A stretch of 64,000 nt of DNA from assembly GCA_030431455.1 (NCBI GenBank), contig JAUIJE010000002.1, positions 629,294-693,293 of the forward strand. The letters run 5' to 3'. This stretch comes from a bacterium. GTDB lineage: Bacteria > Myxococcota > UBA727 > JAUIJE01. The translations under genes and the position numbers were made by a program. Numbering within the stretch: the stretch's first letter is position 1; every line of letters starts with the position of its first letter. Below are positions 5,500 to 57,007 of this stretch, one piece after another. The notes below the pieces were generated by a model. The model saw only the letters and a list, made by a program, of their open reading frames with translations, ran no database searches and was not told the DNA's origin.

Positions 5500-7071
5500 G
5501 TGGGCCACATCAAAGCCTCTTTCTGCCTTCTCTTGCCGCTCGCCCTGTGTGGCTGCCCGCCGGCGATCACCCCGCTGCCCGCCCAGCCCCCCTGTGACCG
5601 GTCCGCCGACTGCGCCGCCGGGTACTACTGCGACACCTTCCAGTCGCGCTGCGTGCCCGACGACCGGCCCCCGCCCTTCGGCTTCGACGCCGGGCGCCGG
5701 CCGGACGCGGGCCTCGACGCCGGCGATGTGCCCGATGTACAAAACGGCCCCGACGCCGGTCTCGACGCCGGTCTGCCCGACGTGGTCGTCGACGCCGGCC
5801 CCCAAAATCCCCTCAACCCCATCGATGTGGCCGCCACCACCGGCTACGGCACCGTGACCGTGACCTTCACCTACCCGGTGGACAACGCGGACCTCTGCGA
5901 GCTCCGGCGCCAGCTGGGCGCCGCGCCGGGCGCCCCCGAGCAGGGCGTGCTCGTCGCCACCGGCACCGAACAAGGCCCCCTCGTCGACGACGACCCCCCC
6001 ATCGAGACCGAGGTGGGCTACAGCGTGTTTTGTGCCCAAGGCGGTCTGTTCGCCACCGTCACCGCCGGCAACCTCGTCGGTCCGTTGTCGGTCAAGCCCC
6101 CCTGGCACTTCCCCGGCTGGCAAAAACGCCACCGGGTCCGTTTTCTCAACGCCGCCCGGCCCACCGCGCTCGACGACTTTGTGGTCCCGGTGTTCATCGA
6201 CCCCATCCGCTATCCCGGCATCGGCAGCGCCCTGACCAGCGGCGCCGACGTCCGCTTTGTCGACATCGACGGCACGGTGTTGCCCTTCGACGTCGAGGGC
6301 TGGAACCAAGCCACCACCACCGGGGTGTTCTGGGTCCGGGTCCCCACCGTCGACGCGAGCTCCGACGACGACAGCATCTTGGTCTACTACGGCAACGCCG
6401 CCGCCTTGCCCGCCCCCAACGCCGGCCAGACCTTCGCCGACCACCTCGCGGTGCTCCACTTCAACCAGGTCGCGGTCAACGCGGTCGCCGACCTCACCGC
6501 CTCCGGCACCGGGTACATCCCCTCGGTGGAAAATCCCCCCGGCCGCATCCTCGGCAGCTACTTGTTCTCGTCGGCGACCAGCGCCCAGCTCAACCTCACC
6601 GGGGGCACCCCCGCGCTGCCGGCGTTCACGTATTCGGCGTGGATCAAGATCCGCAACCTCGCCGCGGGCCAGCGCTTCTTCGAGATCCCCGGTCAGCTCA
6701 CCGTGGGCCGCGACGCGAACACCACCGCGGTCTCGGTCACCGGCAACCTCGGGGGCGCGGTCGACCTCAGCGGGGGCGAGGTGGTGACGCTGGGGCCCTT
6801 TCACCACGTCGTGGTCAGCGGCGACGGGGCCACGGTCGCGCTGTACGTCGACGGGGTGATGGTGGGGAGCGCCACCGCCGCGGGGCTCACCGCGCAGGCG
6901 GGGGCGGTGAGCCTCGGGGGCGGGGCGGCGTTTTTTGATGGCTGGTTCGACGAGGTGCGGCTGCGCGCCGGCGCGCGGGGGGCCGACTGGGTCGACGCGG
7001 ATTTTGCCGCCGGGCAGGACCTGTTCGTCGACGCCGCGCGCGACGCCGAAGAGGACGAGGACACGCCCTGA
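5500..7071 (+). CDS. Lipoprotein with DUF2341 and LamG (concanavalin-like) domains
   Basis: This 523-residue protein begins at GTG 5500 with a lipoprotein signal ending LALCGC. A short Cys-rich knot (CDRSADCAAGYYCDTFQSRC) and several Asp-Ala-Gly linkers follow. Residues about 205-305 match DUF2341: VRFLNAARPTALDDFVVPVF, ADVRFVDIDG, FWVRVP and ILVYYGN are its hallmarks. The C-terminal 190 residues resemble a LamG/concanavalin-like jelly roll (FTYSAWIKI, HHVVVSGDG, LYVDGVMVG, WFDEVRL). Such proteins bind glycans or other surface ligands outside the cell. No catalytic residues were recognised. Confidence 0.8.
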   Translation: MGHIKASFCLLLPLALCGCPPAITPLPAQPPCDRSADCAAGYYCDTFQSRCVPDDRPPPFGFDAGRRPDAGLDAGDVPDVQNGPDAGLDAGLPDVVVDAGPQNPLNPIDVAATTGYGTVTVTFTYPVDNADLCELRRQLGAAPGAPEQGVLVATGTEQGPLVDDDPPIETEVGYSVFCAQGGLFATVTAGNLVGPLSVKPPWHFPGWQKRHRVRFLNAARPTALDDFVVPVFIDPIRYPGIGSALTSGADVRFVDIDGTVLPFDVEGWNQATTTGVFWVRVPTVDASSDDDSILVYYGNAAALPAPNAGQTFADHLAVLHFNQVAVNAVADLTASGTGYIPSVENPPGRILGSYLFSSATSAQLNLTGGTPALPAFTYSAWIKIRNLAAGQRFFEIPGQLTVGRDANTTAVSVTGNLGGAVDLSGGEVVTLGPFHHVVVSGDGATVALYVDGVMVGSATAAGLTAQAGAVSLGGGAAFFDGWFDEVRLRAGARGADWVDADFAAGQDLFVDAARDAEEDEDTP

Positions 7072-7121
7072 GCGGCCGGATGGGGCTCGACAAATTGATC
7101 TGAGTGATTCAGTCAGGCCCC

Positions 7122-8423
7122 ATGGCGAGCAAAAAGAAGACCGCGAAGAAGAAGACCGCGAAAAAGAAGTCCACGACCAAAAAGGCCGTGACCAAGAAAA
7201 AGACCGCGGGCAAGGCGGCGACCAAAAAGGCCACCGCCAAAAAAGCCACCAGCAAAAAGGCCACCACCAAGAAGGCCCCCGCGAAGACGGCGAAATCGGC
7301 GCGCAAGACCACCACCGGGGCGTCGGACAAGACCACCCTCGGGGCCATCGCCGACACCGCCTCGCGCATCCACACCACCATCCGGCGGCAAAAGGCCCCC
7401 GAGCTGGCCATGCCGGTGCGGTCGCTGTCCAATGTTCGCTACAACAAGAAGGTCGGCTTTTTCGAAATCGGGAAGAACAAAAAGATCCGTTCGCTCACCG
7501 TCAACACGGTGAAGACCTTCGCCCAGACGCTCAAGATGATGGCCCTGTCGCGCAACCTCGTGCAGGACAACGACTTCGCCACCAAACGGGACGCGTACTA
7601 CCAAAGCAAAAACTGGGGCGATGCGCGCTTCAAAGACCAGCCCGAGTCGGACACGGTGATGGACGACATCGAGGCGATGTTCTCCGTCGACGGGGTCTCG
7701 CGCGAACAGCTCCGGTTTGTGCCCGACCAGCACGGCGGGGCGGTGGCCGGCGCGCTCACCGTCATCGACCGGGACATGGAGACCGGCGAGCCCATCGAGA
7801 TCGATTGCACCCGCTTCGGCTCGGGCGCCTATTCCGTGCCAAGCTGGGTCGAGCACCTGCAGTTCAAGACCAAAGCGAAGTTCATTCTCTGCATCGAGAC
7901 CCAAGGGATGTTCCAGCGGCTGGCCAGTCACAAGTACTGGCAGCACGCCAACTGCATCCTCATCTCGATGGGGGGCGTGCCCACCCGGGCCTGTCGTCGG
8001 TTCGTGCGGATTCTGTCCGAGAGCGCCAAGATTCCCGTCTACGCGTTCACCGACTGCGACCCCTACGGAATCGCGAACATCTACCGGACCCTCAAGGTCG
8101 GCTCGGGCAACGCCGCGCACATCAACCAGTTCTTCTGTGTGCCCAACGCGACGTTCATGGGGCTGACCCCCTTCGACATCCAAGAGTTCGGCCTGTCCAA
8201 AGCCACCCACCCGCTGGGCAAAGAGGACATCAAGCGGGCCAATGACGCGCTCAAGAACGACCCGTTCTTCCAGAGCTATCCACAGTGGCAAAAAGCGATC
8301 AAGCACATGCTCAAGTCCGAGGTCCGCGCCGAACAGCAAGCCCTGTCGCTGCACGGTCTCAACTTCGTGCTCGAGGAGTACTTGCCCTACAAGCTCAAGA
8401 ACATCGACAAGTTCTTGCCCTGA
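7122..8423 (+). CDS. DNA topoisomerase VI subunit A / Spo11-like protein with histone-H1-like tail
   Basis: A 433-residue protein with two parts. Residues 1-68 are a Lys/Ala/Thr tail of KKT and KKAT units like bacterial H1-type histones. Residues about 75-433 are a Spo11/Top6A core: TKRDAYYQSKN holds the catalytic tyrosine (Tyr160 by alignment with Spo11 RD-YY motifs), and the Toprim metal site is Glu259 (CIETQGMF) with Asp311 and Asp313 (TDCDPYG). All catalytic residues are present, so DNA cleavage is possible. Topo VI works as A2B2 and needs the GHKL ATPase subunit B, which is not adjacent: the neighbours are a lipoprotein and queE. ATG 7122 is preferred to the in-frame GTG 7104, though neither has a strong ribosome site. 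Confidence 0.88.
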   Translation: MASKKKTAKKKTAKKKSTTKKAVTKKKTAGKAATKKATAKKATSKKATTKKAPAKTAKSARKTTTGASDKTTLGAIADTASRIHTTIRRQKAPELAMPVRSLSNVRYNKKVGFFEIGKNKKIRSLTVNTVKTFAQTLKMMALSRNLVQDNDFATKRDAYYQSKNWGDARFKDQPESDTVMDDIEAMFSVDGVSREQLRFVPDQHGGAVAGALTVIDRDMETGEPIEIDCTRFGSGAYSVPSWVEHLQFKTKAKFILCIETQGMFQRLASHKYWQHANCILISMGGVPTRACRRFVRILSESAKIPVYAFTDCDPYGIANIYRTLKVGSGNAAHINQFFCVPNATFMGLTPFDIQEFGLSKATHPLGKEDIKRANDALKNDPFFQSYPQWQKAIKHMLKSEVRAEQQALSLHGLNFVLEEYLPYKLKNIDKFLP

Positions 8424-8438
8424 GGGCTCGAGGACGGC

Positions 8439-9131
8439 GTGACCGCGACGGTGAAGCTGTCCGAGACGTTCTTTTCGTTGCAAGGCGAGGGGTCCCTGAC
8501 CGGGACCCCTTCCTATTTTGTGCGCACCACCGGCTGCAACCTGCGCTGCGCGTGGTGCGACACCCCCGAGACGAGCTGGGCCCCGGTGGGGCAGGACCGT
8601 TCGATCAGTGACATTGTAGCGGAGTACGGTTCGCGCCCGGACGTGCGCCACGTGGTGCTCACCGGGGGCGAGCCGCTCATCGCCCCCCGGGTGGAAGAGC
8701 TCGCCCGGGCCCTGAAGGACGCGGGCGCCCACCTCACCGTCGAGACCGCGGGCACGGTGGACAGAGACATTGTCGCGGACCTGTGGTCGATTTCGCCCAA
8801 GCTCGCGCACGCCACGCCCCACCACGACAAGAAGTGGGCGGTGCTGCACGAGGAGCGCCGGCTCGACGAGAATGTGCTGCGGGCCCTGATGGCGCGCGGG
8901 CCGCACCAGCTCAAGTTTGTGGTCGCGTCCGAAGCCGACCTCGACGAGGTCGACGCGCTGGTGGGCCGGCTCTCGGCCCGCCCCGACCTCGTGCAGCTCA
9001 TGCCCGAGGGAACGGACGCCGCCACCCTCGATGCGCGCGCCCCCTGGGTGGCCAAAGCGTGTCTGGCCCGCGGCTATCGGTTTTGCGATCGGCTGCACAT
9101 CCGCCTGTACGGCCACACCCGCGGCACCTAA
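8439..9131 (+). CDS. queE: 7-carboxy-7-deazaguanine synthase (radical SAM)
   Basis: A 230-residue radical SAM enzyme that converts 6-carboxytetrahydropterin to 7-carboxy-7-deazaguanine in the queuosine/preQ0 pathway. The cluster motif is CNLRCAWC with Cys33, Cys37 and Cys40. The N-terminal FFSLQGEGSLTGTPSYFVR is the typical QueE substrate-binding start, and VVLTGGEPL the SAM-binding GGE motif. It starts at GTG 8439, 15 bases after the Spo11-like gene, probably on the same transcript. Its pathway partner queC is at 36089-36781. The length fits short QueE proteins. Confidence 0.92.
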   Translation: MTATVKLSETFFSLQGEGSLTGTPSYFVRTTGCNLRCAWCDTPETSWAPVGQDRSISDIVAEYGSRPDVRHVVLTGGEPLIAPRVEELARALKDAGAHLTVETAGTVDRDIVADLWSISPKLAHATPHHDKKWAVLHEERRLDENVLRALMARGPHQLKFVVASEADLDEVDALVGRLSARPDLVQLMPEGTDAATLDARAPWVAKACLARGYRFCDRLHIRLYGHTRGT

Positions 9132-12424: not shown

Positions 12425-12492
12425 CAGGTGCGCTCTCGTGTCTCCCACCGGACAGACGGGCGGGGCGGCCGGTCTTGGGGCATCATGGGGGC

Positions 12493-14148
12493 ATGCGCGG
12501 GGTGCTGGCCTTGTTGATGCTGCCGGGTGGGCTGGTCGTTGGGAGCGGCTGTGACGCGGTCTGCGAGGGCGACTTCGTGGTGGAGACCCAGGCCGACCTG
12601 AACGCGCTGGCCGGGTGCGTCGAGGTGGATGGCAACCTGGAGATCACCAGCGCCGAGCGGACCTTGACCCTGGAGAGCCTGCGGGGGCTCGAGCGGGTAT
12701 CGGGCCGGATGCGCATCGCGGGCACCGCCCTGCGCGATCTCTCCGACCTGAAGCAGCTCCGGGAGGTCGGCGGCCCGTTGGACATCTACAACAACTCGTT
12801 CTTGGAGAGCGTCACCGGGCTGTACGGCTTGCAACGTGCAGGGGCATTGTCACTGGAAGACAACCCGCCGATATCGGTGATCCGCGGGTTCGACTCGCTG
12901 GTCGAGGTGGGCGCGCTCCGCATTCAGGGCAACCGCGACCTCCGGCGGGTTTGGGGATTCAACAGTTTGGCCCGCGCCACCGGCCCCCTCCACATCGATG
13001 TAAAAGGTGACATCCAGGGCTTCAACCGGCTCGAATCCACCCTGGGGTCGGTCACGCTCACGGGGCGAGACCGGTCGACGACCCCCAACCGCATCGACGG
13101 CTTTGCCCAGTTGCGTTCCCTGGGCGAGGACCCCACCTCGGTGCTGTCGCTGTCCGCGGAGTCCATCGCGGGATTTGATCACCTGGGCCCCGACTGGGGG
13201 CACGGGCTGCGGGTGTCCGCGTTCCACGTCGAGGGCTTGCCCGACATCGAGACCGTGGCCGGCGACGTCGAGATCGAAGTGTTCGCCCGGCGCACGCCGG
13301 AAGCCGAGCCCCCCGAGCCGTGGGACGCCCTCGGTTTTGTGCAGAGCTGGCGCGCGGTGGGCGGTGACCTGGTGGTGGGGGGCGCGGGGCTCACCTCCTT
13401 GGCCTACTTCGGCGCGCTCGAGTCCGTGGGCGGTGAGCTCGACGTCGGGGGGGCGTTCGGCTTCAGCGACGTCGGCGGCTTCTTTGCGCTCGCCGAGGCG
13501 CGGGGCATCACGCTGCGGGTCGGGCCCGAGGCCGCCCACCTCTACGGGTTCGAAGCGTTGCAGCACACCGGCGAGCTCGCCATCGTGCCCCCGCCTGACG
13601 TCGACGCGGGGCGGCTCGAGACCATCACCGGGTTTGATCAGCTGCACACCGTCGACGGCCCCCTGGTGTTCCGCGACCTCCCGGGGCTGACCCGCATCAC
13701 CGGGTTTTCGTCGCTGACCTCGGTGGGGCAAGCCCATCCCGACGACGCCGCCCTCGGGTCCCTGTACCTGCATGGCCTGCCCGCGCTCTCCACCATCGAG
13801 GCGTTCGGCGCGTTGCGCACGGTGGCCCACACCCTCAACCTCTACCACCTCGCGCCGACCCAGCTGCCCCGGTGGGCCGATCTCGAGGTGCGCCACCTGT
13901 TCATCGTGGACCTCCCGGTGACGGCGTTGCGGGACTGGCCGTCGATGGTCACCCTCGACTCCTTGACCCTTCGCAACAATTCCGCGCTCTACGGTCTCGG
14001 CCTCGCCGGCCTGGTGACCGTCACCGGCCGGGTCGAAATCACCAACAACCCGTCGCTGTCGTGCGCCGACGCCATGGACTTGGTGCAAGCCCTGAGCGCG
14101 CCCCCTGCCGAGGTGCTCGTCGACAACAACCTCGGCGCTTGCTTTTAG
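12493..14148 (+). CDS. Receptor-L-domain-like repeat lipoprotein, paralog 1 of 3
   Basis: A 551-residue lipoprotein (lipobox VGSGC) composed of repeats of the receptor-L/leucine-rich type seen in EGF and insulin receptor ectodomains. After the anchor comes a module with CEGDF and the phrase LAGCVEVDGNLEI; then units such as LREVGGPLDIYNNS, LVEVGALRIQGN and LHTVDGPLVFRDL recur about every 23-25 residues. It closes with SCADAMDLVQ and a final DNNLGACF. It is probably exposed on the outer membrane and elongated, a binding rather than catalytic protein. It shares layout with the next two genes on the same strand. ATG 12493 is used because the hydrophobic segment begins there. Confidence 0.75.
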   Translation: MRGVLALLMLPGGLVVGSGCDAVCEGDFVVETQADLNALAGCVEVDGNLEITSAERTLTLESLRGLERVSGRMRIAGTALRDLSDLKQLREVGGPLDIYNNSFLESVTGLYGLQRAGALSLEDNPPISVIRGFDSLVEVGALRIQGNRDLRRVWGFNSLARATGPLHIDVKGDIQGFNRLESTLGSVTLTGRDRSTTPNRIDGFAQLRSLGEDPTSVLSLSAESIAGFDHLGPDWGHGLRVSAFHVEGLPDIETVAGDVEIEVFARRTPEAEPPEPWDALGFVQSWRAVGGDLVVGGAGLTSLAYFGALESVGGELDVGGAFGFSDVGGFFALAEARGITLRVGPEAAHLYGFEALQHTGELAIVPPPDVDAGRLETITGFDQLHTVDGPLVFRDLPGLTRITGFSSLTSVGQAHPDDAALGSLYLHGLPALSTIEAFGALRTVAHTLNLYHLAPTQLPRWADLEVRHLFIVDLPVTALRDWPSMVTLDSLTLRNNSALYGLGLAGLVTVTGRVEITNNPSLSCADAMDLVQALSAPPAEVLVDNNLGACF

Positions 14149-14262
14149 TGTCCAGCGACGAGACGCCCGATCGGGCGCTCGTCGTGGCCTTGGCGAGCGC
14201 AGATCCGCGTCGCGGTTCGGAAACCTCCAAGCTCCCCGCGCGTGGTGGAGCGGGAGGTGGAC

Positions 14263-15951
14263 ATGGACAAACGCGTGGCGCGCACCGTTTGGGCAATCGG
14301 TGTGATCAGCTTCAGCGCCGGGTGCGGCAAGGCCATCTGTTTGGACGACATGTTGGTCGAGGACCGCACGGGCATGGCGGAGCTCAGCGGTTGTCGGGAG
14401 GTCCGGGGCGACGTCGAACTCGCGGGCGCGTACGTTTGGACCACCTCGGGGCTGTTCGATCTGGAGCGCATCGACGGGGACCTGCGCATTCACGACACGA
14501 ACATCGAGGTCCTCGACGGGCTCGAGCGCCTGGCCCACGTGGCCGGGGTCATCGACATCCACAACAACACATCCCTCGAGACCCTCGCGTCGTTCGACGA
14601 CCTCGAAGGCGCCGGGGGTCTGTACATCGAGTCCAACCACCGCCTGACCCGCATTCCCGGGTTCCCGACGCTGACCAACCTCGGTGGGCTCGTCATCCGC
14701 GACAACCTCGAGCTCCACCACGTCGGCGGGTTCGACGCGCTCGAGAGCATGGCCGGGCCGCTCCACATCGAACTCCACGGGCACATCGATGGCTTTTCAC
14801 AGTTGTTGTTCATCGACGGCGACCTCACCCTCCGAACCCGCGGCGACCCCGGCCTCGCCGGCGAAGAGGAAGCCTCCAACCAGCCCACCACCATCTCCGG
14901 GTTCGATTCGTTCTGGGGCGCCGCCTCGCCCGGCTTTGCCCTCGCCTGGGACACCGACGTGCTCACCGGGTTTGATTGGTTGGGCCCCGACCTCAGCGCG
15001 GACCTCATCGTGCACGCCTCCGCGGTGACCGGCCTCACCCGCGTGTCCACCGTTGAGGGCAGCGTGACCATCGACGCATCGCCCGGCGAGGGCTCGACGG
15101 TCGCGGGCGATGGGGACGCCTTCGGTTGGACCACGAACCTGCGCGCGGTGACCGGGGCGCTGGTGGTCGACGGGCCCATCCCCGGGGACGCCTTCGCTCG
15201 CCTCGTCGTCGTCGGCGACCTGTCCCTCGGGACCAACACCCCGGTGCGCACCGCGGGGCGTTGGCCCTCGCTCACCACCGCCGGATCCATCGACATTGTG
15301 CTGCAAGACAACGCCGCCGACCTCTCCGGCTTCTCTCAGTTGTCCACCGCCCACGCGCTGACCATCCGCACGTCCTCGACCTCCCCCCAGGCCGGCCCCG
15401 CGCGCCTGCTCGGCTTTGACGCCCTCACGTCCCTGGAACGAGGTCTCACCGTCGTCGGTCTGCACCGGCTCACCGAGCTTGGCGCGTTTGGCGCCCTCAC
15501 CACCGTAGGCGCGGGGGGCGGAACCTTCTCGCCGCACGCCGAGGGCGCGTCGGTGGTGCTCCGTGACCTCCCGTTCCTCAGCGCCCTCGACGGCTTGCGG
15601 CAGTTGACCTCGGTGCCGCACGCCCTCCGCCTCGATCACGTCGGCTTGGCATCATTCCCGCCCTGGTCCGACCTCACCGTCACCCACACCATCGAGGTCG
15701 CGGGGGTGGCCGCGACCGCCCTGCCCACGTTGCCCCGCACCACATCGCTGCGAGAGCTCATCATCCGCGAGAACCCGGCGCTCATCGAGCTGGGCCTCAC
15801 CCACGTCGACAGCGTGCCCGGTCGCATCGAAATCTGGGCCAACCCGGCGCTGCCCTGTGCCACCGCCGCATCGTACGTGAACCGACTGCTCACGCCGCCG
15901 GCGTTCTTGATCCTCGAGGACAACCTCAACCCGTGCCCGTGGCCGCGCTGA
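14263..15951 (+). CDS. Receptor-L-domain-like repeat lipoprotein, paralog 2 of 3
   Basis: A 562-residue lipoprotein (lipobox SFSAGC) with the same plan as its neighbours: an N-terminal module with two Cys (KAICLDDM, LSGCREVRGDVEL), then repeats with signature phrases such as LAHVAGVIDIHNNTSLETL, LEGAGGLYIESNHRLTRI and LTNLGGLVIRDNLELHHV, and a C-terminal cap with PALPCATAASYVN. A middle segment (about 190-330) departs from regular repeat spacing, as in paralogs 1 and 3. The ATG has an excellent GGGAGG site upstream. The gap to paralog 1 is about 115 bases. The function is unknown; ligand or cell-surface recognition is inference. Confidence 0.75.
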   Translation: MDKRVARTVWAIGVISFSAGCGKAICLDDMLVEDRTGMAELSGCREVRGDVELAGAYVWTTSGLFDLERIDGDLRIHDTNIEVLDGLERLAHVAGVIDIHNNTSLETLASFDDLEGAGGLYIESNHRLTRIPGFPTLTNLGGLVIRDNLELHHVGGFDALESMAGPLHIELHGHIDGFSQLLFIDGDLTLRTRGDPGLAGEEEASNQPTTISGFDSFWGAASPGFALAWDTDVLTGFDWLGPDLSADLIVHASAVTGLTRVSTVEGSVTIDASPGEGSTVAGDGDAFGWTTNLRAVTGALVVDGPIPGDAFARLVVVGDLSLGTNTPVRTAGRWPSLTTAGSIDIVLQDNAADLSGFSQLSTAHALTIRTSSTSPQAGPARLLGFDALTSLERGLTVVGLHRLTELGAFGALTTVGAGGGTFSPHAEGASVVLRDLPFLSALDGLRQLTSVPHALRLDHVGLASFPPWSDLTVTHTIEVAGVAATALPTLPRTTSLRELIIRENPALIELGLTHVDSVPGRIEIWANPALPCATAASYVNRLLTPPAFLILEDNLNPCPWPR

Positions 15952-43230: not shown

Positions 43231-44970
43231 TCAGAACGCAAACATCAGCATCGCGGTGAGGCGGTTGTTGTCGAGGGGGCCCACCCCCGCGTCGGTGAGC
43301 TCGACCAGGGTGGTGGCGTCGATCATCACGCTGATGGGGAGGTTGTAGCTCACCGGGTCGTAGCGCAGGCCGATGGTGCCTTCGAGCAGGGTGTCGTCGC
43401 GGAAGGTCCGGGTCGGGTCGTAGTAGGAGATCCGGGCCGCGGGTTTGATCCCGAGCAGGGAGATGCCGAAGGGCCGGTCGATGTAGAACCAGCTGGTGGC
43501 GCCAAAGCCATACTCGGCGCGGTTTTGGTCGGTGATCTCGGGGAACAGGCTGTTGGCCACCTCCTGGCGCACGATGCCCTGGGCGAGGAAGTTGAAGCCA
43601 AACGCCGAGGCGGTGAGGTCGCCGAACAGCTGGGTGTCGGTCTCGGCGAAGAGGTTGGGGATCTGGCCGGTGGTGCGCGGGTTGTAGTGCCCGCCGATGC
43701 CCACGTTGATGTAGCGCTCAAAGCCCGCGGACAACCGGGTGAACACCGCGGGGAGTTTGTTGTCGTTGCCGTACTTGGCCGCGCCATTGCCATTGGCCGC
43801 GGCGAACAGGTAATCGAGGCGGACGGGACCGAGGTGGAGGTCTTTGGCCCCCACCACGATGCCCACGTCGCGGCCGACGCCGAGGCCATCGACTTCGTAG
43901 TTGCGGCCCGCGCGGACCCCGGCGGACGCCACCGAACGATCCGTGAACACCAACTGCGAACGCGACGTGGTCCCCTCGACCGCGCCGGGCATGAAGGTCT
44001 GGCCCGCCCAGATTTGCAGGAAGGCAAATGGGGCATAGTGCACAAACGCGTCCACCAAGACCGGCCGGGTGTCCTGCACGGGGTTGTTTTGAATGCGGTC
44101 GGGGAGGAAGCCCGCGCCCTCGATGATCAAGGTAAAATCGAAGGTGTCGCCGTAGGCGCCGCTCACCCCCAGGCGGGCCTGGTCGACGAAGAAGCCGTCG
44201 TTGTTGCCGATGAACAGCGCGCCCGGGTCCGGTTGCTGCAGCTCGTACATCGCCCGCAGGCGGACCCGGGGCCAGACCGCGAACTTGCCAGTGCGCATGC
44301 AGGGGATGCCCGCCGGGCACACGTCCTCGTGGGGGTCGGGCACGGGGGTGGGGTCGGGCCACGCCGTCCGCACCGTGGCGGTGAGATCGCCGAGGGCGCG
44401 CACCTCGCCGCGGTCAAAGCTCACCATCACCCGGTGGCCGTCCGGCTGGGCGTCGCTGTGCACCACGATGTCGACGCGGATGGCGCGGTCGCTGTCCGGC
44501 TCGGTGAAGAGCACGTCGTGCACGCCGGGGGACAGCTGGACCTTGACCGGGGTGGTCCCCACCGGGCTATCCCCCAAAAAGACCTCGGCCCAAAACGGCG
44601 ATGCCGCGAGCTCGACCTCGACGGGGGGCAGGTCCTGTTCGGGGGTGCCGGTGTCGCTCGGGAGGCTGGCGGGGGCTTCGCCGTTGCCCGCCGGGGGGGC
44701 GGCGGACGCCGGGCCGCCCCGGGGCGCCTCGGGGGTCTTTTCCGGGGCATCGGCCGCGGGCGCGGCGGGGGGGGCCGCGGGGGCCTCCTTAGGGGCGGCT
44801 TGGTCGCCGGCGGGCGCGGGGGCCTTGTCCGTCGCCGCGGGCGCCTTGTCCGGGGCCGGTTCGGCCGGGGCCGGGGTCTCGGCCGGGGCCGGGGTCTGCG
44901 CACCGGCCGGCGCGGTGCACATGAACGAGGCCAGGGCCACAGAGGACAGCAAGAGGGCGCGGTGTTGCAT
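43231..44970 (-). CDS. PEGA domain fused to an OprP/OprO-like outer-membrane porin
   Basis: A 579-residue exported protein. It has a signal peptide (about 1-24, ending PAGAQ), then a Pro/Ala/Glu-rich linker to about residue 110, a PEGA-like beta sandwich at about 118-190 (FWAEVFLGDSPVGTTPVKVQLSPGVHDVLF) and a C-terminal beta barrel from about 225 matching phosphate-selective porins (WPRVRLRAMYELQ, GFFVDQARLGVSGAYGDTFDFTLIIEG, IWAGQTFMPGAVEG) and ending in an aromatic, MLMFAF. The linker and PEGA domain could reach the cell wall. GGAGAACCC precedes ATG 44970. Confidence 0.75.
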   Translation of the reverse strand: MQHRALLLSSVALASFMCTAPAGAQTPAPAETPAPAEPAPDKAPAATDKAPAPAGDQAAPKEAPAAPPAAPAADAPEKTPEAPRGGPASAAPPAGNGEAPASLPSDTGTPEQDLPPVEVELAASPFWAEVFLGDSPVGTTPVKVQLSPGVHDVLFTEPDSDRAIRVDIVVHSDAQPDGHRVMVSFDRGEVRALGDLTATVRTAWPDPTPVPDPHEDVCPAGIPCMRTGKFAVWPRVRLRAMYELQQPDPGALFIGNNDGFFVDQARLGVSGAYGDTFDFTLIIEGAGFLPDRIQNNPVQDTRPVLVDAFVHYAPFAFLQIWAGQTFMPGAVEGTTSRSQLVFTDRSVASAGVRAGRNYEVDGLGVGRDVGIVVGAKDLHLGPVRLDYLFAAANGNGAAKYGNDNKLPAVFTRLSAGFERYINVGIGGHYNPRTTGQIPNLFAETDTQLFGDLTASAFGFNFLAQGIVRQEVANSLFPEITDQNRAEYGFGATSWFYIDRPFGISLLGIKPAARISYYDPTRTFRDDTLLEGTIGLRYDPVSYNLPISVMIDATTLVELTDAGVGPLDNNRLTAMLMFAF

Positions 44971-55642: not shown

Positions 55643-57007
55643 CTAGTTGCCGAAGTCGAAGCCGCCGCCGCCGCCGCCACCGCCGCCGGGGTTGTCTTCT
55701 TTGACCGTGCCGACTTCGGGCTCGTATTGAACCCAGCGGAAGTTGTCCATGATCACCGAGCTGTCGAGCACCCCGTCGCCCTCGTCGTGAATGGACAGGA
55801 TGAGGGTCACGGTCTCGTCGTCGGGGCTGATGGGCGCGCTGGTGGTCAGCCAGCCCGAGCCGCTGCCGATGTAGCCGAGGTTGGCCTCGGGGTCGTCGCA
55901 GTAGTCGGGGAGCACGCAGTTGTCGATCGGGAAGCCGGTGCAGCTCGCGAACGCGCTCTCCGCGCCGTAGGGCGTGTTGCCGATGGGCGTGGTCCATTCG
56001 CGGGGAAGCTCGAAGAAGCCGACGTTCACCGTGATCGGGCGGTTCTCGGGGTCGAACGACACGTTGGCCGCCGCGCCGCCGTTGATCGCGTTGGTGGTGG
56101 CGATGGCGTAGAAGGTGTCGTTGTACGACGAGCACAAGAAGTCCGGCCACTCGATCGACATGAACATGAAGTCGAACTCGAAGCCCTTCACGTTGGACGG
56201 CGGGCTCAACACGATCTCGATCTGGGCGAGGTCGTTGACGTCGTCGGCCCCGGGGTTGGCGGGGTCGGGATCGGGAAAGCAACCGCCCGAGCAGAAGGTC
56301 TCGCCGTTGGCGTTGTCACCGTTGGCGTTGCCGCTCGACAGGATGGCCAAGCAGTCGCCTTTTTTGGGCTCGACGTCGCCGTAGTAGTCGGCGAACACCC
56401 CGAACTGGGCCGAGTCGCCCTCGAGCCGCGTCACGCTGAGCACGGTGGGGTCGCACAGGTCCATGGCACTGAGCAGGGAGTTGGCGTCGCTGGTGCCGTC
56501 ACCGGCGCAGGTGCAGGGCGCGATCTCTTCTTCGTCGGTCAGGCCGTTGCAGTTGTCGTCGATGTTGTTGTCCGGGTACTCGTAGCCGCCCGGCTGGACG
56601 AACCACCGCAGGTCGTCGCAATCCTCATTTTCGGGGTCGCTGTTGGGGCAGAAGATGAACCCGTCCTGGTCAAAATCGGTGCACTCGGGATCGCCGTCGC
56701 CGTCTCCGTCGCCGTCGCCGTCGCCGTCCCCATCTCCGTCGCCGTCCCCATCTCCGTCGCCATCCCCATCGCCGTCGCCGTCGCCGTCACCGTCTCCGTC
56801 GCCATCGCCGGTGCAGGCCCGCTCGGTGCAGCTCACCACCGCGCCCGCTTCGCAGGTGCAGTCGTTGCAGCCGTCGTCCGCGATCCAGGTCGCCCCGATC
56901 GCCTTCACGGTGCCGTTGTAGTCGCATTGCGTCTCGTTGCCGTCGCAGCCCCAGGCCAAGACAACGAACAGCACCCCCCAAATTGCGGCGAAGATCCGAA
57001 TCTGCAT
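55643..57007 (-). CDS. Choice-of-anchor-L lipoprotein with VWC-like, Gly-Asp repeat and MopE-like motifs
   Basis: A 454-residue lipoprotein (lipobox VLAWGC). In order: a VWC-like Cys knot ([25 protein letters not shown] to ERAC) near 26-62, about twenty Gly-Asp dipeptides, a MopE-like motif [12 protein letters not shown] and then a choice-of-anchor-L domain ([79 protein letters not shown]). It ends in a Gly-rich tail. Such proteins sit on the outer membrane and are structural or adhesive. AGAGGAG lies six bases before ATG 57007. Confidence 0.82.
56691..56812 (-). repeat. Hexanucleotide repeat coding for Gly-Asp dipeptides
   Basis: About twenty imperfect copies of a six-base unit, read on the minus strand as GGNGAY (GGCGAC, GGAGAC, GGGGAC, GGGGAT and similar). 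Third-position changes keep the Gly-Asp code, so the protein is under stronger constraint than the DNA. A shorter tract (about 2314-2343) encodes the linker of the lipase-like lipoprotein. Confidence 0.8.

Follow-up and report, generated by a model that had tools for sequence, protein, structure and literature searches.

By all of the sequence and structure features that could be tested, the protein encoded at 7122-8423 of the 64-kb stretch of DNA analysed here (the window) is a genuine topoisomerase VI A subunit (Top6A). It very probably belongs to a complete A2B2 topoisomerase VI (topo VI) whose B-A operon has been split and which works as a decatenase beside gyrase; its A subunit carries a lineage-specific tail that may help to retain it on DNA. 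What we infer from sequence comparison is that the enzyme is active, that its A and B subunits pair in vivo, that it serves as a decatenase and that the tail has an effect. In the proposed mechanism, an ancestral B-A operon would have been split in this lineage, leaving the B gene 93 kb from the A gene; a second duplex, on which the B subunits close with ATP, would pass through a break that the A subunits make in the first duplex by means of Tyr160 and the Toprim acids.

The features of the window are collected in Table 1. All three Pfam domains of the 7122-8423 protein (TP6A_N, Topo_VI_alpha and TOP6A-Spo11_Toprim) scored above their curated cut-offs. The original prediction had claimed a Spo11/Top6A core with Tyr160, Glu259, Asp311 and Asp313 and had proposed a family alignment as a check; the claim stands, with the four residues invariant in all 26 relatives aligned and also across a further set of 38 sequences, Woesearchaeota among them. 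Tyr160 is the counterpart of the second tyrosine in the archaeal EAYY motif. The best NCBIfam matches were to PRK04342 topoisomerase models, titled either "DNA topoisomerase IV subunit A" or "VI subunit A", with a top score of 430 bits that lies under the cut-off of that equivalog. The nearest solved relative is the M. jannaschii enzyme (1d3y, E=1e-97), and the AlphaFold2 model (mean pLDDT 85.8; below 50 throughout residues 1-64) matched it with a TM-score of 0.94 normalised on the target, indicating a Top6A fold. Membership of the Spo11 family was rejected, as the core has 49% identity to 1d3y (E=5e-36) vs 18% to Spo11 (8uru, E=1e-12), and a phmmer comparison with Spo11 gave E=0.016. A GTG upstream at 7104 is a possible alternative start of the open reading frame.

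Table 1. Features of the Top6A gene and of its surroundings in the window
Feature	Position	Strand	Remarks
Secreted protein, DUF2341 and concanavalin-like domain	5500-7071	+	directly upstream of Top6A
Top6A gene	7122-8423	+	433 aa plus stop; intact ORF
K/A/T-rich basic tail	7122-7319	+	residues 1-66, Top6A N-terminus; pLDDT <50 over residues 1-64
15-bp in-frame tandem repeat (ACCAAAAAGGCCACC = TKKAT)	7221-7277	+	3.8 copies, within the tail
TP6A_N (winged-helix / CAP-like) domain	7512-7691	+	residues 131-190; Pfam
Catalytic Tyr160 codon	7599-7601	+	from alignment with archaeal EAYY motif
Topo_VI_alpha all-beta domain	7731-7877	+	residues 204-252; Pfam
Toprim domain (TOP6A-Spo11_Toprim)	7881-8396	+	residues 254-425; Pfam
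Toprim acid Glu259	7896-7898	+	from alignments
Toprim acid Asp311	8052-8054	+	from alignments
Toprim acid Asp313	8058-8060	+	from alignments
QueE-like radical SAM protein (7-carboxy-7-deazaguanine synthase)	8439-9131	+	starts 15 bp past the Top6A stop
Two tandem paralogous-looking secreted proteins, receptor-L / LRR-like repeats	12475-14148, 14242-15951	+	
tRNA-Pro (CGG)	44660-44743	+	only tRNA of the window
6-bp tandem repeat TCGCCG	56691-56810		20 copies

The Top6A/Spo11 Toprim fold is shared with the nuclease of SMC-like anti-plasmid defence (Wadjet JetD / MksG), and weak PADLOC JetD matches of 31 and 25.7 bits were obtained with the Toprim part of the protein. At 31 bits the match is confined to residues 227-409 or less, and no JetABC was found among the adjacent genes, Top6A being flanked by the gene for the concanavalin-like secreted protein on one side and by that for the QueE-like radical SAM protein on the other. 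The full-length Top6A domain set and orthology, the cognate Top6B and the conserved B-A operons of relatives leave a defence nuclease with a negligible probability. Given the 15-bp gap between the Top6A stop and the QueE-like gene, these two genes may be co-transcribed; no QueE-like homologue, and therefore no conserved Top6A-queE linkage, was found among the listed flanking genes of relatives. No Rfam features were found in the window.

The original prediction was literally correct that the B gene is absent from the window, and it is to the whole-genome search that the description of Top6A as an orphan gives way. The genome encodes one Top6B of 621 aa (C16:730794-732659), on the same contig and strand and 93,078 bp downstream of Top6A. 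This Top6B is complete, with GHKL HATPase and transducer domains above the cut-off and an H2TH domain present; its alignment to M. mazei Top6B covers residues 11-337 and 420-594, and its GHKL motif residues are invariant among 25 relatives. Of the two options that had been proposed for the A subunit, pairing with a distant B gene is thus supported, and action without B is disfavoured both by this complete gene and by the linked B-A arrangement of most relatives. Some Spo11-like proteins make do with a minimal B partner or none, and a 64-kb window without a B gene would be compatible with an orphan A subunit of Spo11 or mini-A type that cuts without Top6B, its tail possibly replacing the DNA-engaging role of B. 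We regard such an orphan as highly unlikely, however, since the only Top6B of the genome is complete and shares a contig with Top6A, relatives as a rule have B and A linked, and the core is nearest to archaeal Top6A and far from Spo11.

The arrangement of the two genes was compared across 39 genomes, the present one included. Top6A was found in 26, and in 17 of these 26 Top6B lies directly upstream of it; seven of the 17 belong to the same order, including G002 and the genomes of family f5. Linkage of Top6B in close relatives, which the original prediction had said would change its reading, is therefore what was found. Additionally, B adjoins A in 14 of 15 further loci, the exception being located at a contig edge. 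The pair is separated in families f1, f2 and f4, and in G006 the two genes are convergent and about 2.9 kb apart. Because B is directly upstream of A in most relatives, the split in this lineage appears secondary (derived). Adjacency, which the present genome lacks, is usual and not required, so that membership of topo VI is unaffected.

Several further observations were made on Top6B. In this order, an acidic insert of about 80-100 residues separates H2TH from the transducer (L003:6803-7051, residues 337-419, outside the window), and the stretch examined in the present genome contains 29 acidic vs 9 basic residues. The insert also occurs in f5, where Top6A is tail-less, and is missing in f8, f9, f11, f12 and f17. 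The C-terminus of the present Top6B reads KKKTKKKSKTKSKSKAA (L003:7604-7657, outside the window), and a long S/T/K-rich C-terminal tail is found on Top6B of the f4 genome G010. The gene immediately upstream of Top6B encodes a secreted protein in which GD is repeated over a very long stretch (L003:4165-5718, outside the window).

The decatenase role is suggested by the distribution of type II topoisomerases across the Myxococcota. The 156 genomes of the phylum that were searched for Top6A (>=90% complete) were also scored for the number of GyrA/ParC-family genes (PF00521). Top6A was detected in 48 of the 156, a frequency that, for this phylum, is at odds with the earlier statement that bacterial copies are rare. 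All 48 have exactly one PF00521 gene; among the 108 genomes without Top6A, 102 have at least two and six have one. By family, the 20 with Top6A never have a second PF00521 gene and the nine without Top6A always do, with no overlap. Fisher tests gave p values of 6e-34 at the genome level, which is inflated by relatedness, and 1e-7 at the family level, the fairer measure of the two, although it too ignores phylogeny. The single PF00521 gene was taken to be GyrA, the GyrA box being confirmed in the present genome only. The Top6A proteins of the phylum form two very divergent groups (33-37% vs 61-79% identity to the 7122-8423 protein), and the exclusion was seen in both; the two groups suggest two acquisitions, with a placement that is uncertain from long branches.

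The present genome encodes one GyrA with a GyrA box and one GyrB/ParE-type gene. No topo IV was detected in it, and since the assembly is 96.87% complete and in 28 contigs, parC and parE may have been missed; such a miss in one incomplete assembly would not, however, explain a phylum-wide pattern. The M. mazei topo VI preferentially decatenates DNA (PMC8837201), being slow and distributive on supercoils (PMC8837201, PMC5922973), and topo IV is reported to be lacking from three topo VI-bearing families of the Myxococcota (PMC11302465). Combined, the single PF00521 gene of Top6A-containing genomes, the published decatenase preference and the published lack of topo IV argue that topo VI replaces topo IV, and the enzyme is most likely the chromosome decatenase here, beside a single gyrase. 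Alternatively, topo VI could mainly relax positive supercoils or serve another process, the absence of topo IV being incidental and gyrase alone being enough. The six near-complete genomes with neither Top6A nor a second PF00521 gene are in keeping with this alternative, as are G009 and G012, two reduced genomes of the same order (0.5 and 0.3 Mb) in which neither Top6A nor Top6B was found and which have one GyrA/ParC-family gene and are apparently gyrase-only. The exclusion is nevertheless clean in large genomes and across both divergent Top6A groups, and the M. mazei enzyme prefers catenanes to supercoils, so that we consider the sufficiency of gyrase improbable. The retention of topo VI by bacteria is treated as an open question in the literature (PMC11302465). 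With topo VI read as the replacement of topo IV, the answer in this phylum looks simple, as a family has topo IV or topo VI and not both, and the phylum would represent a natural experiment in which an essential enzyme was swapped for an archaeal one.

The original prediction had also described about 68 residues of histone-H1-like KKT/KKAT repeats. The repeats are real, and can now be placed at the N-terminus of Top6A: residues 1-68 contain 26 K, 16 A and 15 T, and the net charge is +29 across the first 95 residues. GC3 in the tail (0.87) is near that of the Top6A core (0.90), and the tail therefore looks like translated sequence. The histone likeness was retained in part. The H1-like HC2 family (PF07382) scored 22.6 bits against the whole of Top6A and 20.9 bits against the tail alone, under the cut-off of 40, and common ancestry with histone H1 was rejected; the KKxxAKK-type repeats are alike, and the likeness to a compacting protein is one of repeat pattern only. 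None of seven shuffled tails gave an HC2 match, indicating that the HC2-like ordering is lost on shuffling. A search of the present genome found no other protein sharing the tail. As modelled, the tail is probably disordered, and its net charge, predicted disorder and HC2-like repeats make nonspecific DNA binding plausible.

The frequency of tails was judged from the 39 sampled genomes and from the 15 additional loci, picked for family spread. Within the order, long tails are found in G000 (f1), G001 (f2) and G002 (f3) and moderate ones in f4, and Top6A has no tail in the f5 genomes or in G004, though the latter is a family-mate of the long-tailed G001. Long basic N-termini of Top6A also occur in other bacterial lineages (L061, L067, L068, L076 and L077), these being among loci fetched partly by the peptide pattern KKKTAKKK, which biases the tail frequency there. 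The archaeal Top6A homologues retrieved are without a long basic N-terminus. The tail is a lineage-specific and variable basic extension that is long in three of the order's families and missing from sister lineages; its absence from f5 of the same order indicates that it is dispensable for basic enzyme function.

By analogy with other topoisomerases, the tail would most likely raise the affinity for DNA or the residence time on it. Wendorff and Berger found the M. mazei enzyme to be distributive and slow, postulated a processivity factor and left the slow in vitro pace of the type IIB enzyme itself unexplained (PMC5922973). A more specific proposal, which we put forward tentatively and hold to be rather doubtful, is that the basic Top6A tails of topo VI-dependent bacteria are a built-in retention device that makes a distributive topo VI processive enough to act as the sole dedicated chromosome decatenase of a bacterium; if true, the missing processivity factor proposed by these authors would be present in cis, as the tail itself (PMC5922973). 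The lysine repeats of actinobacterial TopA raise processivity, and that tail is likewise lysine-rich, repeat-built, lineage-specific, terminal and found in high-GC bacteria (PMC7398561). It belongs, however, to a type IA enzyme, is C-terminal and has an experimentally established processivity gain, whereas the present tail is N-terminal on a type IIB enzyme and its role is putative. In plants, RHL1 and BIN4 contribute DNA binding to topo VI as accessory proteins and may provide the same processivity aid; they are separate proteins reported absent from bacteria (PMC11302465), whereas the tail here is fused to the A subunit, and no homology is claimed.

A serious rival to DNA retention is that the tail is neutral low-complexity sequence that expanded as a 15-bp unit was duplicated in tandem, and that it has no specific role. 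The period-15 repeat within the tail and the strong variation of its length between sister genomes (none in G004 vs long in G001, of one family) are what neutral growth would produce, and we give this explanation an appreciable chance of being right. It is opposed by the recurrence of long basic N-termini with a common K-rich composition (G000-G002, L061, L067, L068, L076 and L077) and by the loss of HC2-like ordering in all seven shuffles. The tailed and tail-less pairs within one order would allow a direct test of the effect of a lysine tail on a type IIB enzyme.

Overall, the present Top6A has the domain order, tyrosine, Toprim acids and fold common to known topo VI A subunits (1d3y of M. 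jannaschii; 2q2e and 9o0g of M. mazei; 2zbk), and, as in known topo VI systems, a cognate B subunit is encoded in the same genome. It differs from the solved enzymes in its bacterial host, in the distance of 93 kb between the A and B genes, in the basic N-terminal tail of about 66 residues on A, and in two features of the B subunit: a short basic tail at its C-terminus, and an acidic insert of about 80 residues that separates H2TH from the transducer. In the catalogue of Allen and Maxwell 2024, bacterial topo VI was described in 17 families, including Polyangiaceae, Anaeromyxobacteraceae and Vulgatibacteraceae, which likewise have topo VI and gyrase and no topo IV, and was attributed to horizontal transfer from archaea on at least two occasions (PMC11302465). 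In the passages of that study consulted, we found no mention of a tail or of unlinked A and B genes (PMC11302465), and the phylum-scale count given here, with Top6A in 48 of 156 genomes and in 20 families and a clean exclusion of a second GyrA/ParC gene, goes beyond it. The advance over that work is a modest one, namely a variant that has a tail on its A subunit and unlinked genes for its two subunits, together with the phylum-wide exclusion between topo VI and topo IV.
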